Of a stretch of 42,232 nucleotides of DNA, positions 23,215 to 30,890 are shown in pieces. Positions within the stretch are counted from its first letter, which is position 1; each line of letters starts with the position of its first letter. Position numbers and translations under genes: made by a program. Under the pieces are notes generated by a model. The model saw only the letters and a program-made list of their open reading frames with translations, was not told where the DNA came from and did no database searches. The stretch is from Peptococcaceae bacterium (GTDB taxonomy: Bacteria; Bacillota; Desulfitobacteriia; Desulfitobacteriales; Syntrophobotulaceae): the NCBI GenBank assembly GCA_012520405.1, contig JAAYOJ010000007.1:1-42232 (forward strand), given 5' to 3'.

Positions 23215-23239
23215 AAAAAGGCTGTAAAGCCTTTTTTTT
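23215..23239 (+). terminator. Terminator between the MFS gene and the his operon
   Basis: A 9-pair stem (23215-23223 with 23228-23236), a GTAA tetraloop of the stable GNRA class, and an eight-base T-run. It sits just 12 bases upstream of the his operon -35 box. Confidence 0.88.
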
Positions 23240-23250
23240 ATAAAAAACCC

Positions 23251-23279
23251 TTGACAATACTTTATTACTTTAATATAGT
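23251..23279 (+). promoter_or_regulatory. Sigma-A promoter of the histidine operon
   Basis: Perfect TTGACA at 23251-23256, a 17-base spacer and TATAGT at 23274-23279 (5 of 6). A start near 23286 gives a leader of about 31 bases to the yerC ATG, too short for a T-box or attenuator. Regulation must therefore act at this promoter. Confidence 0.8.
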
Positions 23280-23286
23280 AAAGTAA
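23265..23286 (+). promoter_or_regulatory. Candidate YerC operator overlapping the -10 box
   Basis: A perfect palindrome of arms TTACTTTA (23265-23272) and TAAAGTAA (23279-23286) separated by six bases. The -10 box lies within it. A further direct TACTTTA copy sits at 23258-23264, so half-sites occur three times. A repressor bound here would block RNA polymerase. The next gene encodes a TrpR-like regulator, making autoregulation of the his operon likely. Confidence 0.65.
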
Positions 23287-23316
23287 ATCTCGGAATAGGT
23301 AGTGGAGGTCAAAAAT

Positions 23317-23658
23317 ATGATTGATGAAAGGCTGAAAGATAAAGCCACGGATTTTCTGTTTGAGGCTATCCTTCTTTTGGAAACAAAAGAAGAGTGTTAC
23401 CGCTTTTTTCAAGACCTGGCTACAGTGGCTGAAATAAAAGCTTTGGCCCAAAGGCTGGAGGTGGCTCGTATGTTGGAGGAAGACGTTACTTATTCTCGGA
23501 TTGAAGAATTGACAGGAGCCAGTTCGGCGACGATCAGCAGAGTAAAAAGGTGCTTGTACTATGGTGCTGACGGGTACAAAACAGTTTTAGCCAGAATGGC
23601 AAAAAAGAGCGAAAATAATGGCCAAAAGGCAACAAATGAGGTGGAAAGTAGCCAATGA
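23317..23658 (+). CDS. YerC/TrpR-family DNA-binding regulator
   Basis: A 113-residue member of the YerC/YecD group of TrpR-superfamily proteins. The helix-turn-helix is in about residues 58-80 (TYSRIEELTGASSATISRVK). The N-terminal MIDERLKDKATDFLFEAILLL is typical, and the Lys-rich C-terminus is disordered-looking. ATG 23317 follows GGAGG. As first gene of the his operon, four bases overlapping hisZ (ATGA), behind a promoter with a palindrome, it is likely a histidine-responsive or other-ligand repressor of its own operon. The ligand is inferred, not shown. Confidence 0.85.
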   Translation: MIDERLKDKATDFLFEAILLLETKEECYRFFQDLATVAEIKALAQRLEVARMLEEDVTYSRIEELTGASSATISRVKRCLYYGADGYKTVLARMAKKSENNGQKATNEVESSQ

Positions 23659-24803
23659 AACGTTCACCATTAGGACTTAAGCTGCCCGAGGGGATGCGGG
23701 ATATGCTTCCGGAGGAACTGGCCAGGCTGGAGGAAATGGAAGCCAAGGCCCTAAAGACCTGCCGCTTATGGGCCTATCAGAAAGTAGCGACTCCGGGCTT
23801 GGAGTACAGGGCTTGTGTTGAACCGGATGCTTATAAGCATGACGACCTTTACAAGTTTTTTGATAAAAATGGGCAAATTCTTGCTCTTAGGCCGGAATTC
23901 ACCACCCCGATAGCCAGAATGGTTGTGAGCAGACTTAAAAAACCATTACTGCCCTTGCGTTATTGTTACAGCGGTGATGTTTATCGGAATAACGAGGCCC
24001 GTTACCGGGAATTCCGTCAGGTTGGGGTGGAACTTGTGGGGTCCGGGTCGGAGGTGGCCGATGCTGAGGTTATTGCCTTGGCGGTGGAAATAATGAAATC
24101 TCTCGACATCCCTAATTTTCAAATTAACCTTGGTCATAACGGTATTTTTTCCGGACTGGCGGAGGAATTAAATATTAAAGACCATTTGCGCCTGGAGTTG
24201 GAAGACGGCATCTCGCGCAAAGATATGGTCAGGTTGGAAGGGGTAATTTCTCAAAGCCCGCTACCGCCGACGGTTAAAGAATTACTGTTAGCTATGCCCC
24301 ATTTAACCGGAGGGGATGAAGTTTTAAACAAGCTTAAAGAGTGGACCCGTCTTCAAGCTATTCAAAAAGCAGTGGAATCTTTGCAAAATATTTTTCAGCA
24401 TCTTGAAGATTTCGGAGTTAAAGATTATGTGGCCTTGGACTTAGGGATCTTAAGAGGATTTTCCTACTATACCGGTGCTATTTTTGAAGGCTACTTGCCT
24501 GGTGTAGGCATTCCGGTGATTGAAGGCGGACGTTATGACAATCTGTACGCCGATTTTGGGGTTAATAGTCCGGCAACCGGTTTTGCCGTTAACCTGGGAG
24601 TTATCCAGGAACAGCAGGCTGAATTCCGGGTTGAAAAGGCCGAGATCTTAGTTTACGGGGATTCCCAGAGAGAAGTTATTAAATATTGCCGCAAATTGCG
24701 CCAAGAAGGGAAACTAGTAGAAATGGTGCTGGAACCATTGAGCGATCAGGAAGTGGCAAGTTTAGCTCAGAGCAAGGGTATAGATCAGCTTATTAAAGTA
24801 TAA
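23655..24803 (+). CDS. hisZ: ATP phosphoribosyltransferase regulatory subunit HisZ
   Basis: A 382-residue HisZ, a histidyl-tRNA-synthetase paralogue without aminoacylation activity that forms an octameric complex with short HisG and is needed for its catalysis and histidine feedback. Class II synthetase-like motifs are visible: YCYSGDVYRN and REFRQVGVELVG in the motif 2 region and IEGGRYDNLYADFG further on, but no C-terminal anticodon-binding domain of full length is evident. ATG 23655 overlaps yerC by four bases. Its presence fits the short HisG downstream. Confidence 0.93.
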   Translation: MKRSPLGLKLPEGMRDMLPEELARLEEMEAKALKTCRLWAYQKVATPGLEYRACVEPDAYKHDDLYKFFDKNGQILALRPEFTTPIARMVVSRLKKPLLPLRYCYSGDVYRNNEARYREFRQVGVELVGSGSEVADAEVIALAVEIMKSLDIPNFQINLGHNGIFSGLAEELNIKDHLRLELEDGISRKDMVRLEGVISQSPLPPTVKELLLAMPHLTGGDEVLNKLKEWTRLQAIQKAVESLQNIFQHLEDFGVKDYVALDLGILRGFSYYTGAIFEGYLPGVGIPVIEGGRYDNLYADFGVNSPATGFAVNLGVIQEQQAEFRVEKAEILVYGDSQREVIKYCRKLRQEGKLVEMVLEPLSDQEVASLAQSKGIDQLIKV

Positions 24804-24816
24804 GGGGTTTGGGAAA

Positions 24817-25899
24817 ATGACCAAAAGAATAGGAGTACTAACCGGAGGCGGGGACTGCCCGGGTCTTAATGCAGTAATCAGGGCTGTGGTTAAAAGTGCA
24901 ACTTTTAAAGGAATAGAAGTAATAGGTATCAGGGACGGTTTCAAAGGTGCTGTGGAACAGGATTTTGTTAAATTAGGCTTACAGCAAGTATCCGGTATCT
25001 TGCACCGGGGTGGAACTATTTTAGGGACTTCCAATCGGGATAATCCCTTTGCCTATTGGGTTGAGGAAAAGGGTCGCAAAATTCAAAAGGATTGTTCGGA
25101 CCGAGTGCTAGCCAATCTGGCCCAGCAGGGCATAGAAGACCTGATCGTGATAGGCGGCGACGGAAGTCTTAATATTGCTTTGGAACTTATGCAAAAAGGC
25201 TTAAGGGTGATAGGAGTACCTAAAACCATTGACAATGATCTAATGGCTACTGATTTTACTTTTGGCTTCCAATCTGCCGTGGATACGGCGCAAGATGCGC
25301 TGGACAAACTGCACACCACCGCCGAGTCTCACCACCGGGTAATGATCCTGGAAGTTATGGGACGCTATGCCGGTTGGATTGCTCTTTATGCCGGATTGGC
25401 CGGTGGGGCAGATGTTATTTTAATCCCTGAGATTCCTTATAGCATTGAAAAAGTGGCTGAGGCTGTCAACCTGCGCAAGGAAAAAGGGAAAAAGTTCAGT
25501 ATTATTGTTGCTGCCGAAGGAGCCAGGCCCATTGACGGGGAAATGGTGGTTAAGACCAGGCTGGAAGGAAGAACGGATCCTGTTGTACTTGGTGGTGTTG
25601 GGGCCAAGGTGGCTGAGGATCTGGAAGGATTAATAGGACTTGAAACTCGAGTAACCGTTTTAGGCCACATTCAGCGTGGGGGATCACCTAATGCCTATGA
25701 TCGAGTTCTGGCTACCAGGTACGGAACTGCAGCGATAGACGCTGTAATCGCCGGAGAAACAGGGAAAATGGTCGCTCTAAAAGGTACGGAAATTGTTACT
25801 GTTCCTTTGGCGGAAGCCGTAAGTCACCTGAAGAAAATTCCTTTGCACCATCCCGTCATGCTGACGGCCAGGGCGGTAGGTCTTCGCTTTGGAGATTAA
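24817..25899 (+). CDS. pfkA: 6-phosphofructokinase, embedded in the his operon
   Basis: A 360-residue PFK that phosphorylates fructose 6-phosphate. Visible: GVLTGGGDCPGLNAVIR at the start, IGGDGS (112-117), PKTIDND (135-141) and LEVMGRYAGW. Residue Gly116 (E. coli Gly104) is ATP-type, while Lys136 (E. coli Gly124) is the residue of the PPi/mixed (group III) lineage; this Gly/Lys pair leaves the phosphate donor (ATP or PPi) uncertain. It sits between hisZ and hisG, 13 and 34 bases from each. ATG 24817 follows AAGGGG. PFK has no place in histidine synthesis; a link through ribose 5-phosphate/PRPP supply is speculative. Confidence 0.9.
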   Translation: MTKRIGVLTGGGDCPGLNAVIRAVVKSATFKGIEVIGIRDGFKGAVEQDFVKLGLQQVSGILHRGGTILGTSNRDNPFAYWVEEKGRKIQKDCSDRVLANLAQQGIEDLIVIGGDGSLNIALELMQKGLRVIGVPKTIDNDLMATDFTFGFQSAVDTAQDALDKLHTTAESHHRVMILEVMGRYAGWIALYAGLAGGADVILIPEIPYSIEKVAEAVNLRKEKGKKFSIIVAAEGARPIDGEMVVKTRLEGRTDPVVLGGVGAKVAEDLEGLIGLETRVTVLGHIQRGGSPNAYDRVLATRYGTAAIDAVIAGETGKMVALKGTEIVTVPLAEAVSHLKKIPLHHPVMLTARAVGLRFGD

Positions 25900-25933: not shown

Positions 25934-26602
25934 GTGCCCAAAAACTTTTTAACTATTGCTTTACCCAAAGGAAAACTGTTAACGGATTCTGTACAGTTAT
26001 TAACCCAGGCCGGGATAGATTGCCAGGGAGTAGAGGAAGACTCTCGCCGGCTGCTGTTTGACTTGCCGCCAAACCAGGCCAGGATTATTATTTGCCGGCC
26101 CACTGATATACCGACTTATGTCGAACACGGAGCAGCTGATATCGGCTTTGTGGGTAAAGATACCATTATTGAGCAAAATTGTGATGTAGCTGAGCTGCTG
26201 GATTTAAAATTCGGCTACTGTCGCTTTGTGGTGGCCATGCCGGAAGAAAATCTTCCCCCGATATTGCCTAATGGTGAATATGATCTTAACTATATTAATC
26301 ATAAACGAGTGGCCACTAAGTTCCCGCGGGTAGCCCAGATGTTTTTCAGCTCTAAAGGAATGCAAGTAACCCCGGTCAAATTGCATGGCAATATAGAGCT
26401 GGCACCCCGCGTAGGCTTGGCGGAGACAATCGTGGATATTGTTTCTACAGGCCGGACCTTAAGAGAGAATAATCTGAAAGAGGTAGCTCAAATCCTGGAA
26501 GCTACCACCAGAATGATTGCTAACAGAGTTTCTTACAGGATAAAATACGAACGGATCCAGGAACTGGCCGACAAATGCCGGGAATTACTCCAAGAAAATT
26601 AA
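25934..26602 (+). CDS. hisG: ATP phosphoribosyltransferase, short form HisG
   Basis: Catalyses the first step of histidine synthesis, joining ATP and PRPP. At 222 residues it is the short form lacking the C-terminal regulatory domain, which needs HisZ. The substrate motifs are visible: [12 protein letters not shown] near the start, GFVGKDTI, and the PRPP-loop block [15 protein letters not shown]. The start is GTG 25934 behind GGAAGGAG. A HisZ is encoded two genes upstream, so the complex is complete. Confidence 0.95.
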
Positions 26603-26647: not shown

Positions 26648-27934
26648 ATGAAAACAGTTATAAAATATCAGGATTTCGATCCCAATAAGCTGCGTCAAAA
26701 AGTTTATAATCAGGATCAGAAAATAAAAAATACGGTGGCCGAAATTATTAAGGATGTCCAGGCCCAAGGGGATGAGGCTCTCTATAGGCTAACGGCTAAA
26801 TTGGACGGGGCTGACTTAAAAACAAGCGGGCTTCAGGTTTCTCCCCGGGAGATTGAAGAGGCTTATCTTAAAGTTGACCAAAGCTTTCTGCAAGCTTTGC
26901 GTCAGGCCAAGGAAAACATATACCGTTACCATGCCGGGCAAAAACGTGCCTCCTGGTTCGAGAGTAAAGAGGATGGCAGCCTGCTTGGCCAGTTATACCG
27001 TGCGTTGGAGCGAGTAGGTATTTATGTGCCGGGAGGAACCGCAGCCTATCCTTCCTCCGTGTTGATGAATGCTCTGCCTGCTGTTGTAGCCGGAGTAGAA
27101 CAAATTGTAATGGTTAGTCCTCCCCTCAAGGACGGTAGTATTCTACCTGAAGTTCTGGTTGCTGCCCAAGAATGCGGTGTGACGGAAATCTATAAAATCG
27201 GTGGAGCTCAGGCTATAGCCGCTTTGGCCTATGGTACAGCAAGCATAAGGCCGGTGGACAAAATTACCGGTCCGGGCAATATTTACGTTACTTTAGCTAA
27301 GAAAGAAGTTTATGGCACGGTCGATATAGATATGTTGGCCGGGCCAAGTGAAATTCTCATTTTGGCAGATCAAAGCGGCTGTCCCAAGGAGCTTGCTGCC
27401 GATCTTCTTTCTCAGGCCGAACATGACCGCTTGGCTTCTTCCATCTTGATTTCCCCGGACCTAAAACTATTAAAGGAAACGGCGGCCGAAGTGGAACAGC
27501 AGCTGAAGGAATTGCCCCGCGCGGACATAGCCAAGGCTTCTTGGGAAAACAACGGGGCTCTTGTTCTGGTGGAAGATTTAAAACAAGGAATGGATTTAGC
27601 CAATAGCATTGCCCCCGAACATTTAGAATTGGTGGTAGAAGATCCATTATTGTGGCTGGGCAAGGTTAAGAATGCCGGGGCAGTTTTCCTGGGACGCAAT
27701 ACACCGGAACCGGTGGGCGATTATTTTGCCGGTCCTAACCATATCCTGCCCACAGGGGGAACAGCCCGCTTTTATTCCGTATTAGATGTGGATGCTTTCT
27801 TGAAAAAAATAAGTATAGTCAGTTATTCGGCTCAAGCCTTGCAAAGGGACGCCGAACAAATTGCTTTATTGGCTCGCCGCGAAGGGCTGGAGGCCCATGC
27901 CAGAGCGGTAGAGGTCAGGCAAAAACAGCAGTAA
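26648..27934 (+). CDS. hisD: Histidinol dehydrogenase
   Basis: Oxidises L-histidinol to histidine in two NAD+ steps with a catalytic Zn2+. It is a 428-residue enzyme. Visible: VGIYVPGGTAAYPSSVLMN, the Gln/His metal region in LLSQAEHDRLAS, PEHLELVVEDP and AGPNHILPTGGTARFYS. ATG 26648 follows AGAGGT. It directly follows hisG, a common order in bacteria. Confidence 0.97.
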   Translation: MKTVIKYQDFDPNKLRQKVYNQDQKIKNTVAEIIKDVQAQGDEALYRLTAKLDGADLKTSGLQVSPREIEEAYLKVDQSFLQALRQAKENIYRYHAGQKRASWFESKEDGSLLGQLYRALERVGIYVPGGTAAYPSSVLMNALPAVVAGVEQIVMVSPPLKDGSILPEVLVAAQECGVTEIYKIGGAQAIAALAYGTASIRPVDKITGPGNIYVTLAKKEVYGTVDIDMLAGPSEILILADQSGCPKELAADLLSQAEHDRLASSILISPDLKLLKETAAEVEQQLKELPRADIAKASWENNGALVLVEDLKQGMDLANSIAPEHLELVVEDPLLWLGKVKNAGAVFLGRNTPEPVGDYFAGPNHILPTGGTARFYSVLDVDAFLKKISIVSYSAQALQRDAEQIALLARREGLEAHARAVEVRQKQQ

Positions 27935-27963
27935 GAAATGTTAGAGGAAACGGAGGGATTAGG

Positions 27964-28548
27964 ATGCGCCAAGGAGTTTTGGCCAGGAAAACTATGGAAA
28001 CGGATATCAAGGCCAAACTGGTGCTTGACGGCCGGGGAGAAGCCAATCTGGATACAGGTCTTGCTTTTTTTGACCATATGTTGAATTCGTTCTGTCGGTT
28101 TGCCTATTTTGATCTTAATTTAAAAGCTGTGGGCGACCTTGAAGTTGACCAACATCATACCATAGAAGACTGTGGGATTGTGTTAGGACAAGTTTTCAAA
28201 GAGGCCCTGGGAGACAAGTTGGGAATTCAGAGGGTTGCTGATTGCCTTTTTCCTATGGATGAGGCGCTGGCCCAGGTCGCCGTCGATATTTCCAACCGCG
28301 GCTATCTGGTTTGGCAAGTAGATTGTCCTCCGGGTATGGTTGGCGAGTTTCCGGTGGAAATGGTCGAGGAGTTTTTCCGGGCTTTTGCCTATAATGCCGG
28401 AATTACCTTACATATTCGTCTTCTAAGCGGCAAGAACAAACATCATATTCTGGAAGCGATATTTAAAGCTGTGGGCCGGGCACTAGGGCTGGCGGTAGGT
28501 TTAGATGGGCGTAACAGCGGTATTCCTTCCACCAAGGGAGTATTATAA
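27964..28548 (+). CDS. hisB: Imidazoleglycerol-phosphate dehydratase
   Basis: A monofunctional 194-residue HisB of the type found in Gram-positives; a manganese enzyme that dehydrates imidazoleglycerol phosphate. The two inverted metal motifs are DQHHTIEDCG and NKHHILEAIFKA. GGAGGGATTAGG lies ahead of ATG 27964. The histidinol-phosphate phosphatase domain is absent, as expected for this type, so the phosphatase must be encoded elsewhere. Normally hisH would follow; the next gene is hisA. Confidence 0.96.
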   Translation: MRQGVLARKTMETDIKAKLVLDGRGEANLDTGLAFFDHMLNSFCRFAYFDLNLKAVGDLEVDQHHTIEDCGIVLGQVFKEALGDKLGIQRVADCLFPMDEALAQVAVDISNRGYLVWQVDCPPGMVGEFPVEMVEEFFRAFAYNAGITLHIRLLSGKNKHHILEAIFKAVGRALGLAVGLDGRNSGIPSTKGVL

Positions 28549-28591
28549 AACTTATGATGATAGAAAAAATTAGGAAGTGGGTTGTAAGCAA

Positions 28592-29323
28592 GTGATTATA
28601 TATCCGGCTATAGATTTAAAAGACGGTCAAGTTGTTCGGCTCCTGCAGGGAAACATGGAAGAGGCGACAGTGTTTGGGCATGACCCTGTTAAGGTAGCAG
28701 CTGACTTTTTAAAGCAAGGCACGAAGTACCTGCACCTGGTAGACTTAAATGGGGCCGTGGAAGGGAAGCCGGTTAACGACCAAGCTATTAGAAATATCCT
28801 GACCCAAGTACCCTTAGAAATTCAAATCGGTGGGGGTATTCGTACTTTGGAGCGGATTGAGGAGCTGTTAGAATTAGGAGTATCAAGGGTAATCCTGGGG
28901 ACGGTGGCCGTAAGAAAACCCGAATTAGTGGCGGAAGCTGTACGCCGGTACGGTGAGAGAATTATTGTGGGTATAGACGCTCGCGAAGGGATGGTTGCGG
29001 TCCAAGGATGGTCGGAAAAAACGAACATCAAAGCCGAGGAACTGGGCTTAGCTATGAAAGAAGTAGGAGTTTCCCGGATTATATTTACGGATATTGCCAG
29101 GGATGGCATGATGGCCGGTCCTAATATCAAAAGTACAGTTCAAATGGCGCAAGCTACCGGTTTGAAAGTTATAGCCTCCGGTGGTATTTCCTGCTTGGAA
29201 GATTTAATCCGGCTTAAAGCTGAGGCTGACCGCGGCCTTGGGATTGAAGGAGTTATCGTGGGCAAAGCACTTTATTCCGGTGCTTTTACCCTTGGGCAGG
29301 CTTTGGAGGCAATGAATAACTAG
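28592..29323 (+). CDS. hisA: Phosphoribosylformimino-5-aminoimidazole carboxamide ribotide isomerase
   Basis: HisA performs the Amadori rearrangement before the HisF/HisH step. It is a 243-residue (beta/alpha)8 barrel. With GTG 28592 the protein begins (M)IIYPAIDLKDG, the family's usual start, giving catalytic Asp8; Asp129 in GIDARE is the second general acid/base. An in-frame GTG at 28577 would add five residues and is less likely. The GTG overlaps the TGA of a 13-codon frame that starts at 28554; I take that frame as chance. Confidence 0.93.
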   Translation: MIIYPAIDLKDGQVVRLLQGNMEEATVFGHDPVKVAADFLKQGTKYLHLVDLNGAVEGKPVNDQAIRNILTQVPLEIQIGGGIRTLERIEELLELGVSRVILGTVAVRKPELVAEAVRRYGERIIVGIDAREGMVAVQGWSEKTNIKAEELGLAMKEVGVSRIIFTDIARDGMMAGPNIKSTVQMAQATGLKVIASGGISCLEDLIRLKAEADRGLGIEGVIVGKALYSGAFTLGQALEAMNN

Positions 29324-29349
29324 GGAGTACGTAGGAGGGATTAACATTG

Positions 29350-30108
29350 ATGTTAGCCAAAAGAATTATTCCCTGTCTTGATGTTCATGCAGGGCGGGTT
29401 GTCAAGGGTACAAATTTTGTGCAGCTCCGTGATGCCGGAGACCCGGTGGAACTCGCTTCTTTTTATGACCGGGAGGGGGCGGATGAACTTGTTTTATTGG
29501 ATATTTCTGCTACGGTCGAAGGCCGGGCCACTATGGTGGAAGTGGTTCGAAAAACGGCTCAGCAGGTGTCCATCCCTTTTACCGTCGGCGGCGGACTGCG
29601 GACCATAGAAGATATTCGTCGCATCTTGAATGCCGGTGCGGATAAAGTCTCTTTGAACACAGCTGCCATCCAAAATCCCAAGCTTATTGGGGAAGGGGCG
29701 CAAACCTTCGGCAGGGAGCGCATAGTTGTAGCTATTGATGCCCGGCAAGTGGGAGAAATGCGCTGGGAGGTATATACCCACGGTGGCGGGACTTCGACAG
29801 GGCTAGACGTCCTGGAATGGGCTAAGCAAGTAGAAGATTTAGGAGCGGGAGAAATCCTTCTGACTTCCATGGATCGGGACGGTACTAAAGACGGCTATGA
29901 CAATGATTTGAACAGAACAATCAGTAGAGCAGTATCCATCCCTCTTATAGCAAGTGGCGGGGCCGGTAACCTTCAACATTTGGCGGACGGCTTGACTAAA
30001 GGAGAAGCAGATGCTGTGTTGGCAGCCTCAATTTTTCATTACCGGGAATATAGCATTCAAGAGGCTAAGAATTATTTAAAGGAACGGGGAATTCCGGTTC
30101 GCGAATAA
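29350..30108 (+). CDS. hisF: Imidazole glycerol phosphate synthase cyclase subunit HisF
   Basis: The cyclase half of the glutamine-dependent IGP synthase, a 252-residue (beta/alpha)8 barrel. Catalytic Asp11 and Asp130 are in place (CLDVHAG; VAIDAR). Residues that form the ammonia gate to HisH in Thermotoga maritima HisF, Arg5, Glu46, Lys99 and a Glu near 168, are all present. No hisH occurs in the operon, yet HisF looks built for a glutaminase partner. ATG 29350 follows AGGAGGGATTAAC. Confidence 0.96.
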
Positions 30109-30149
30109 GCAAGAACATAAATTTAAGAGAGATATTGAAGGTGACTAAA

Positions 30150-30890
30150 ATGAGTAATAAAATAGATGAGACGGTACTCGAGCAAGTCATGAAAGAAATC
30201 CGCTGGAACCAAGACGGCCTTGTTCCCGCCGTGGTCCAAGATATAGAAAGCGGACAAGTATTAATGCTTGCCTATATGAACGCCGAAGCTTTGGAAAGGA
30301 CTATTAGGGAGGGCAAAGCTTATTACTTTAGCCGCTCGCGCCAAAGTCTCTGGCTGAAAGGGGAGACATCGGGCCACTTTCAAGAAGTTGTCGACATGCG
30401 TTTCGACTGTGACCAGGATGCTGTCCTCCTTCAAGTAAAACAAACCGGCATGGCTTGCCATGAACACTATTTTTCTTGCTTTCATAATAAAATTAATGTT
30501 TATGAACAGGAAAATAATAGCAGGCAAAAAGACCAAGGCTTTTGGACCACGGTTGGTGAGCCCGGGCTTAAGCCCGATATCCCTTTGGGCAGGATTTTGG
30601 AGATGCTTGCCGAAACTATTAACCAGAGAAATCTGACAAGACCCGAAGGGGCTTATACTACCTACCTGTTTACTAAAGGTTTAGACAAGATACTGAAAAA
30701 AGTAGGCGAAGAGTGTGCTGAAGTTATTATTGCCGCCAAAAATGACAATCCGGACGAGATAACCTATGAAACTGCGGACCTGCTTTATCATCTCTTGGTT
30801 CTGCTCGAGGATCGAAAAGTAGGCTTGCAGGAAATTGCCGCTGAACTTAACTCCAGAAGAGGAAAGAAAAGCGTGATCAAAGATAAGTAA
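30150..30890 (+). CDS. hisIE: Bifunctional phosphoribosyl-AMP cyclohydrolase / phosphoribosyl-ATP pyrophosphatase
   Basis: A fusion of HisI (about 1-125) and HisE (about 145-246). HisI shows FDCDQDAVLLQVKQTGMACH and the second Cys in YFSCF (metal site). HisE is MazG-like with GEECAEVIIAAK and the EITYETADLLYHLLVLL helix. The two reactions open the ring and remove pyrophosphate in steps 2 and 3 of the pathway. ATG 30150 is chosen because GAAGGTG precedes it; an in-frame TTG at 30135 is less likely. This is the last his gene of the operon; no hisC or hisH follows. Confidence 0.95.
   Translation: MSNKIDETVLEQVMKEIRWNQDGLVPAVVQDIESGQVLMLAYMNAEALERTIREGKAYYFSRSRQSLWLKGETSGHFQEVVDMRFDCDQDAVLLQVKQTGMACHEHYFSCFHNKINVYEQENNSRQKDQGFWTTVGEPGLKPDIPLGRILEMLAETINQRNLTRPEGAYTTYLFTKGLDKILKKVGEECAEVIIAAKNDNPDEITYETADLLYHLLVLLEDRKVGLQEIAAELNSRRGKKSVIKDK

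Follow-up and report, generated by a model that had tools for sequence, protein, structure and literature searches.

A probable HisR (YerC) operator over the his promoter of a Peptococcaceae bacterium, and extra half-sites at 8-bp intervals

A perfect palindrome covers the -10 box of a his operon in a Peptococcaceae bacterium, and the first gene of this operon encodes a protein of the TrpR superfamily. Is the palindrome the operator of that protein, and what is the role of a further copy of its half-site lying immediately upstream? The locus belongs to contig JAAYOJ010000007.1, and the whole stretch of 42,232 nucleotides that was analysed is referred to as the window. The promoter region contains the following elements.

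23215-23236, + strand: intrinsic terminator closing the MFS transporter gene that lies upstream, with a stem of 9 bp, a loop of 4 nt and a T run
23251-23256, + strand: -35 box TTGACA, likewise placed in 38/44 related operators
23258-23264, + strand: third half-site TACTTTA, exactly 8 bp 5' of the left arm of the operator
23265-23286, no strand assigned: putative HisR operator TTACTTTA-ATATAG-TAAAGTAA, an exact inverted repeat that matches the published consensus
23266-23285: operator core 20-mer TACTTTAATATAGTAAAGTA, matching the published consensus cacTTTAnnnnnnTAAAgtg
23274-23279, + strand: -10 box TATAGT, at the operator centre, after a 17-base spacer from the -35 box
23304-23308, + strand: ribosome-binding site GGAGG of hisR, by inspection

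The sequence of positions 23251-23286 can be written as TTGACA-ATACTTTATTACTTTAA-TATAGT-AAAGTAA. The -10 box is made of five bases of the operator spacer plus the base with which the right arm begins, and the palindrome's own TACTTTA, at 23266-23272, is preceded by the extra TACTTTA 8 bp ahead of it. This is the arrangement described in an earlier note on the locus, and each of its elements was confirmed: the inverted repeat TTACTTTA-N6-TAAAGTAA is exact, TATAGT falls within the spacer and right arm, a third half-site lies directly upstream (the interval 23258-23286 spans both elements), and the leader is about 31 nt long, given the ATG at 23317 behind GGAGG and a transcription start predicted near 23286. 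The terminator hairpin at 23215-23236 (-10.4 kcal/mol, z -2.8) cuts off the his promoter from transcription further upstream.

The genes that follow the promoter are these.

23317-23658, + strand: hisR (yerC), TrpR-family histidine repressor, 113 aa (PF01371, 1.5e-31; TIGR02531, 1.9e-41)
23655-24803, + strand: hisZ (TIGR00443, 4.6e-98)
24817-25899, + strand: pfkA, 6-phosphofructokinase gene within the operon (TIGR02483, 1.1e-137)
25934-26602, + strand: hisG (TIGR00070, 2.4e-61)
26648-30890, + strand: hisD, hisB, hisA, hisF and hisIE, in this order, open reading frames named from sequence alone

The product of hisR, which is present in a single copy in the assembly, belongs to the YerC/YecD subfamily, with 108.7 bits for PF01371 (cut-off 27) and 140.4 bits for TIGR02531 (cut-off 42.2); the identification of the first gene as YerC of the TrpR superfamily thus stands on both TIGR02531 and the Pfam Trp_repressor family. 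The genes from hisD to hisIE share 81-95% identity with the matching genes of two congeners. The position of pfkA between hisZ and hisG is common to many loci of the order, and some family members have hisG directly after hisZ.

The palindrome might in principle have arisen by chance in promoter DNA rich in A+T. When the 126-bp intergenic region is shuffled with its dinucleotides preserved, perfect inverted repeats with 8-bp arms and a spacer of 3-12 bp arise in 6.6% of the shuffles, the real region contains two of them (the operator and the upstream terminator hairpin), and 24 perfect repeats with 8-bp arms occur across the window, so that the operator repeat is by itself weak evidence and its significance comes from conservation. 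Conservation over dozens of genomes, with none of the sites in the controls, refutes the chance explanation, which we consider next to impossible. We gathered 110 hisR loci, of which 92 remained after removal of duplicates, 68 with hisZ and 24 without hisZ nearby. A site scoring at least 12/14 was found within 200 bp upstream of hisR in 35 of the 68 loci with both genes; two control stretches of the same 68 loci, one within hisR and one from -600 to -400, contained no such site. Lowering the threshold to at least 11/14 gave 49 upstream sites against 3 inside hisR and 1 at -600 to -400. Conservation of the palindrome in closely related genomes that share the gene order, the check named in advance for this locus, was therefore found, and it extends across the order.

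Of the 24 hisR loci that have no hisZ nearby, most carry no site ahead of hisR (one reaches at least 12/14), from which it follows that autoregulation is not universal. HisR-type sites are present, too, at hisZ operons in genomes that carry hisR elsewhere. A clear site upstream of hisR was mostly absent in loci from 20 distant families. Phylum-wide, ACTTTA-N6-TAAAGT lies mostly away from his genes, and the bare pattern is therefore unspecific outside the order. Within the 2.5-Mb assembly, TACTTTA-N6-TAAAGTA has a single perfect match, which is the operator at 23265-23286.

The relation of operator to promoter is conserved together with the operator. In the Desulfitobacteriales-like set of 44 operators, the 38 with a likewise placed TTGACA carry it 17 bases ahead of the central hexamer of the operator, and this hexamer is a -10-like TAAATT, TATATT, TAGATT or TATAGT in 37 of the 44. 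Given this placement, bound HisR would cover the -10 box and most of the spacer.

The YerC-type protein has already been characterised under the name HisR, with the consensus cacTTTAnnnnnnTAAAgtg (Ashniev et al. 2022, PMC9413887), in a regulon whose first inference is credited in PMC9413887 to Leyn et al. 2013 and Ravcheev et al. 2011. The window operator fits the TTTA-N6-TAAA core of the published sites exactly. In that study, hisR heads the his operon in 20/20 of its Peptococcaceae, the HisR of R. gnavus binds the 20-bp site only with histidine present, and the published targets include hisXYZ* transporter genes (PMC9413887). The description of the target of YerC as poorly characterised is accordingly out of date. 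With respect to the protein family, the 20-bp palindrome with its TTTA-N6-TAAA core, the position of hisR at the operon head, and the his operon and a histidine-type ABC transporter as targets, the system in the window differs in nothing of kind from the regulon as presented in PMC9413887.

Taken with the family assignment, this consensus match and the conservation support the proposal that YerC represses the his operon with the palindrome as its operator; the idea of YerC as the histidine repressor is right, yet already published. A possible objection is that a different regulator recognises the palindrome, with HisR acting at some other place. Such a regulator would need to share the published HisR consensus, which the palindrome matches, and to have its sites not only at his operons headed by hisR but also at his and transporter genes away from hisR; we regard this reading as highly unlikely. 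The region 23265-23286 is very probably the operator at which HisR (YerC), the histidine repressor that the operon's leading gene encodes, acts.

A leader-based mechanism would be an alternative for a his operon in this phylum, T-box or attenuator control in Firmicutes being histidine-responsive as well. The window has a leader of the length given above and contains no match to the T-box family (RF00230) or any other Rfam family at the gathering threshold, in agreement with the view that T-box control is unlikely here. The accompanying premise, that the T-box is the usual his control of Firmicutes, is outdated: in the published survey HisR takes this place, in 395/626 genomes, and T-boxes are a minority his control outside Lactobacillales (PMC9413887).

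A second candidate site in the same genome, TACGTTATCATATTAAAGTG, has two mismatches and lies on contig 56 at 961-980, where it precedes a gene for an amino-acid ABC transporter component.

Contig 56, 94-980: gene for the substrate-binding protein of an amino-acid ABC transporter, bearing a conserved HisR-type operator

The family matches of this substrate-binding protein are all sub-threshold. Sites with two mismatches are no rarer in the genome than expected by chance (22, against 37 for the reversed pattern), and it is conservation that has to carry the case for the transporter site. The site is kept in all three members of the genus, and sites scoring 12-13/14 stand upstream of the best transporter-gene matches in seven further, more distant genomes; upstream of less similar transporter paralogues no such site was found. 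The amino-acid ABC transporter gene is thus likely, as judged by this comparison, to be a second HisR target, and it agrees with the published hisXYZ* targets (PMC9413887). Other near-matches in the genome, including those near a lactate-permease-like gene and a PHP-domain gene and one inside an elongation-factor-P-like gene, were inspected and have no histidine link.

The third half-site at 23258-23264 proved to be part of a wider pattern. All half-site counts given here are from related sequences, scored with a half-site model derived from the same family: profiled column by column, 54 operators have a strong block, GAAAG, at positions 22-26, exactly 8 bp past the AAAG of the right arm, and AAAG at operator positions 23-26 is exact in 32/54 and within one mismatch in 48/54. 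Other downstream positions in the 54 operators have at most 4 exact AAAG matches, the highest of them being position 31, another 8 bp along. In most of the other relatives the additional half-site is located 8 bp downstream. The genus of the window is without this downstream copy, and all three of its members have TACTTTA, 7/7, 8 bp upstream.

The register recurs in an independent set of 15 operators, taken from genomes with hisR not next to hisZ and picked by their central 20 bp only; one locus was left out because the site was too close to the locus end. Of these 15 operators, 13 have a half-site scoring 5/7 or better at either +8 or -8, where shuffled flanks would give 1.6. In nine transporter operators the upstream match peaks at 8 bp, with 4.7/7 where 2.5 would be expected, and is second-highest at 16 bp (4.4). 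The operators of Negativicutes show a downstream match at offset 16 as high as that at offset 8. In six Sporomusa-type loci of this group, the operators upstream of hisR have AAAG-like half-sites at +8 and +16 downstream, some of them also at +24.

These extra half-sites might instead represent promoter or early-transcript sequence that happens to resemble them, for example -35 boxes or initially transcribed bases, with no tandem dimers involved. The upstream half-site of the transporter set overlaps a possible -35 box (CTTTAC), and the downstream half-site of the Desulfitobacteriales set coincides roughly with transcript bases +1 to +5. The 8-bp register, however, is present on both sides of the operator and at differing promoter positions, with offset 16 raised as well, and the operators of Negativicutes have no TTGACA at the usual place, yet 8/10 of them carry AAAG at 23-26. 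We consider this explanation of the pattern as a whole somewhat improbable, and part of the half-site signal may nevertheless be of such origin.

Binding by tandem dimers would account for the same register. The 8-bp period of the half-sites fits TrpR-like tandem dimers, which are offset from each other by 8 bp. Tandem dimers of TrpR are reportedly seen in the structure of Lawson and Carey from 1993 (PDB 1trr). HisR and E. coli TrpR have the family fold in common, including the helix-turn-helix (GASSATISR in HisR, GAGIATITR in TrpR), at 26% identity, and both have half-sites at an 8-bp interval, tandem dimers being known for TrpR and inferred for HisR. They differ in the half-site itself, TACTTTA for HisR against GNACT for TrpR, and in the corepressor, which for HisR is histidine, as demonstrated for an orthologue. 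We see about even chances that HisR operators generally are ladders of half-sites with an 8-bp period that load at least two dimers cooperatively, that the side of the extra half-site varies by lineage, and that the genus of the window shifted it from downstream to upstream, into the space separating the -35 box from the -10 box. In its main text, PMC9413887 presents one 20-bp palindrome and makes no mention of half-sites spaced by 8 bp. The probe bound by the HisR of R. gnavus was 30 bp long and carried one 20-bp site between poly-G flanks (PMC9413887), which indicates that extra half-sites are dispensable for binding in vitro. The extra half-sites every 8 bp are the one fresh detail of this analysis, and a modest one.

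The likely course of regulation can be outlined from these elements. With ample histidine, HisR dimers would bind the palindrome over the -10 box and spacer and exclude RNA polymerase; when histidine drops, HisR would be released and hisR-hisZ-pfkA-hisGDBAF(IE) transcribed. As hisR lies within the repressed operon, HisR would also control its own expression. The half-site 8 bp upstream most likely allows a second HisR dimer to bind beside the first, in the tandem manner of TrpR. The sequences themselves show the overlap with the promoter, the protein family, the conserved operator and the 8-bp register of the extra half-sites. HisR binding at this site and its dependence on histidine are inferred from published work on the orthologue; tandem binding and the direction of control in this organism are presumed.

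The comparison places one more uncultured Peptococcaceae-type lineage under the published histidine repressor, and the operator, its promoter and the transporter target are all conserved across the order. If the 8-bp ladder reflects real binding, it would provide a sharper model for searches of the HisR regulon than the 20-bp palindrome, and the tandem loading known from TrpR would be common to the wider family.

The operon itself shows one peculiarity. The product of hisH is the glutaminase partner of HisF, and a match to hisH (TIGR01855) was found neither anywhere in the 95.8%-complete assembly nor in one congener. The hisB-hisA junction at 28548-28577 measures about 28 bp, with no hisH between the genes, and the other congener retains hisH at this place. 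The species without hisH are either histidine auxotrophs, or their HisF uses free ammonia.
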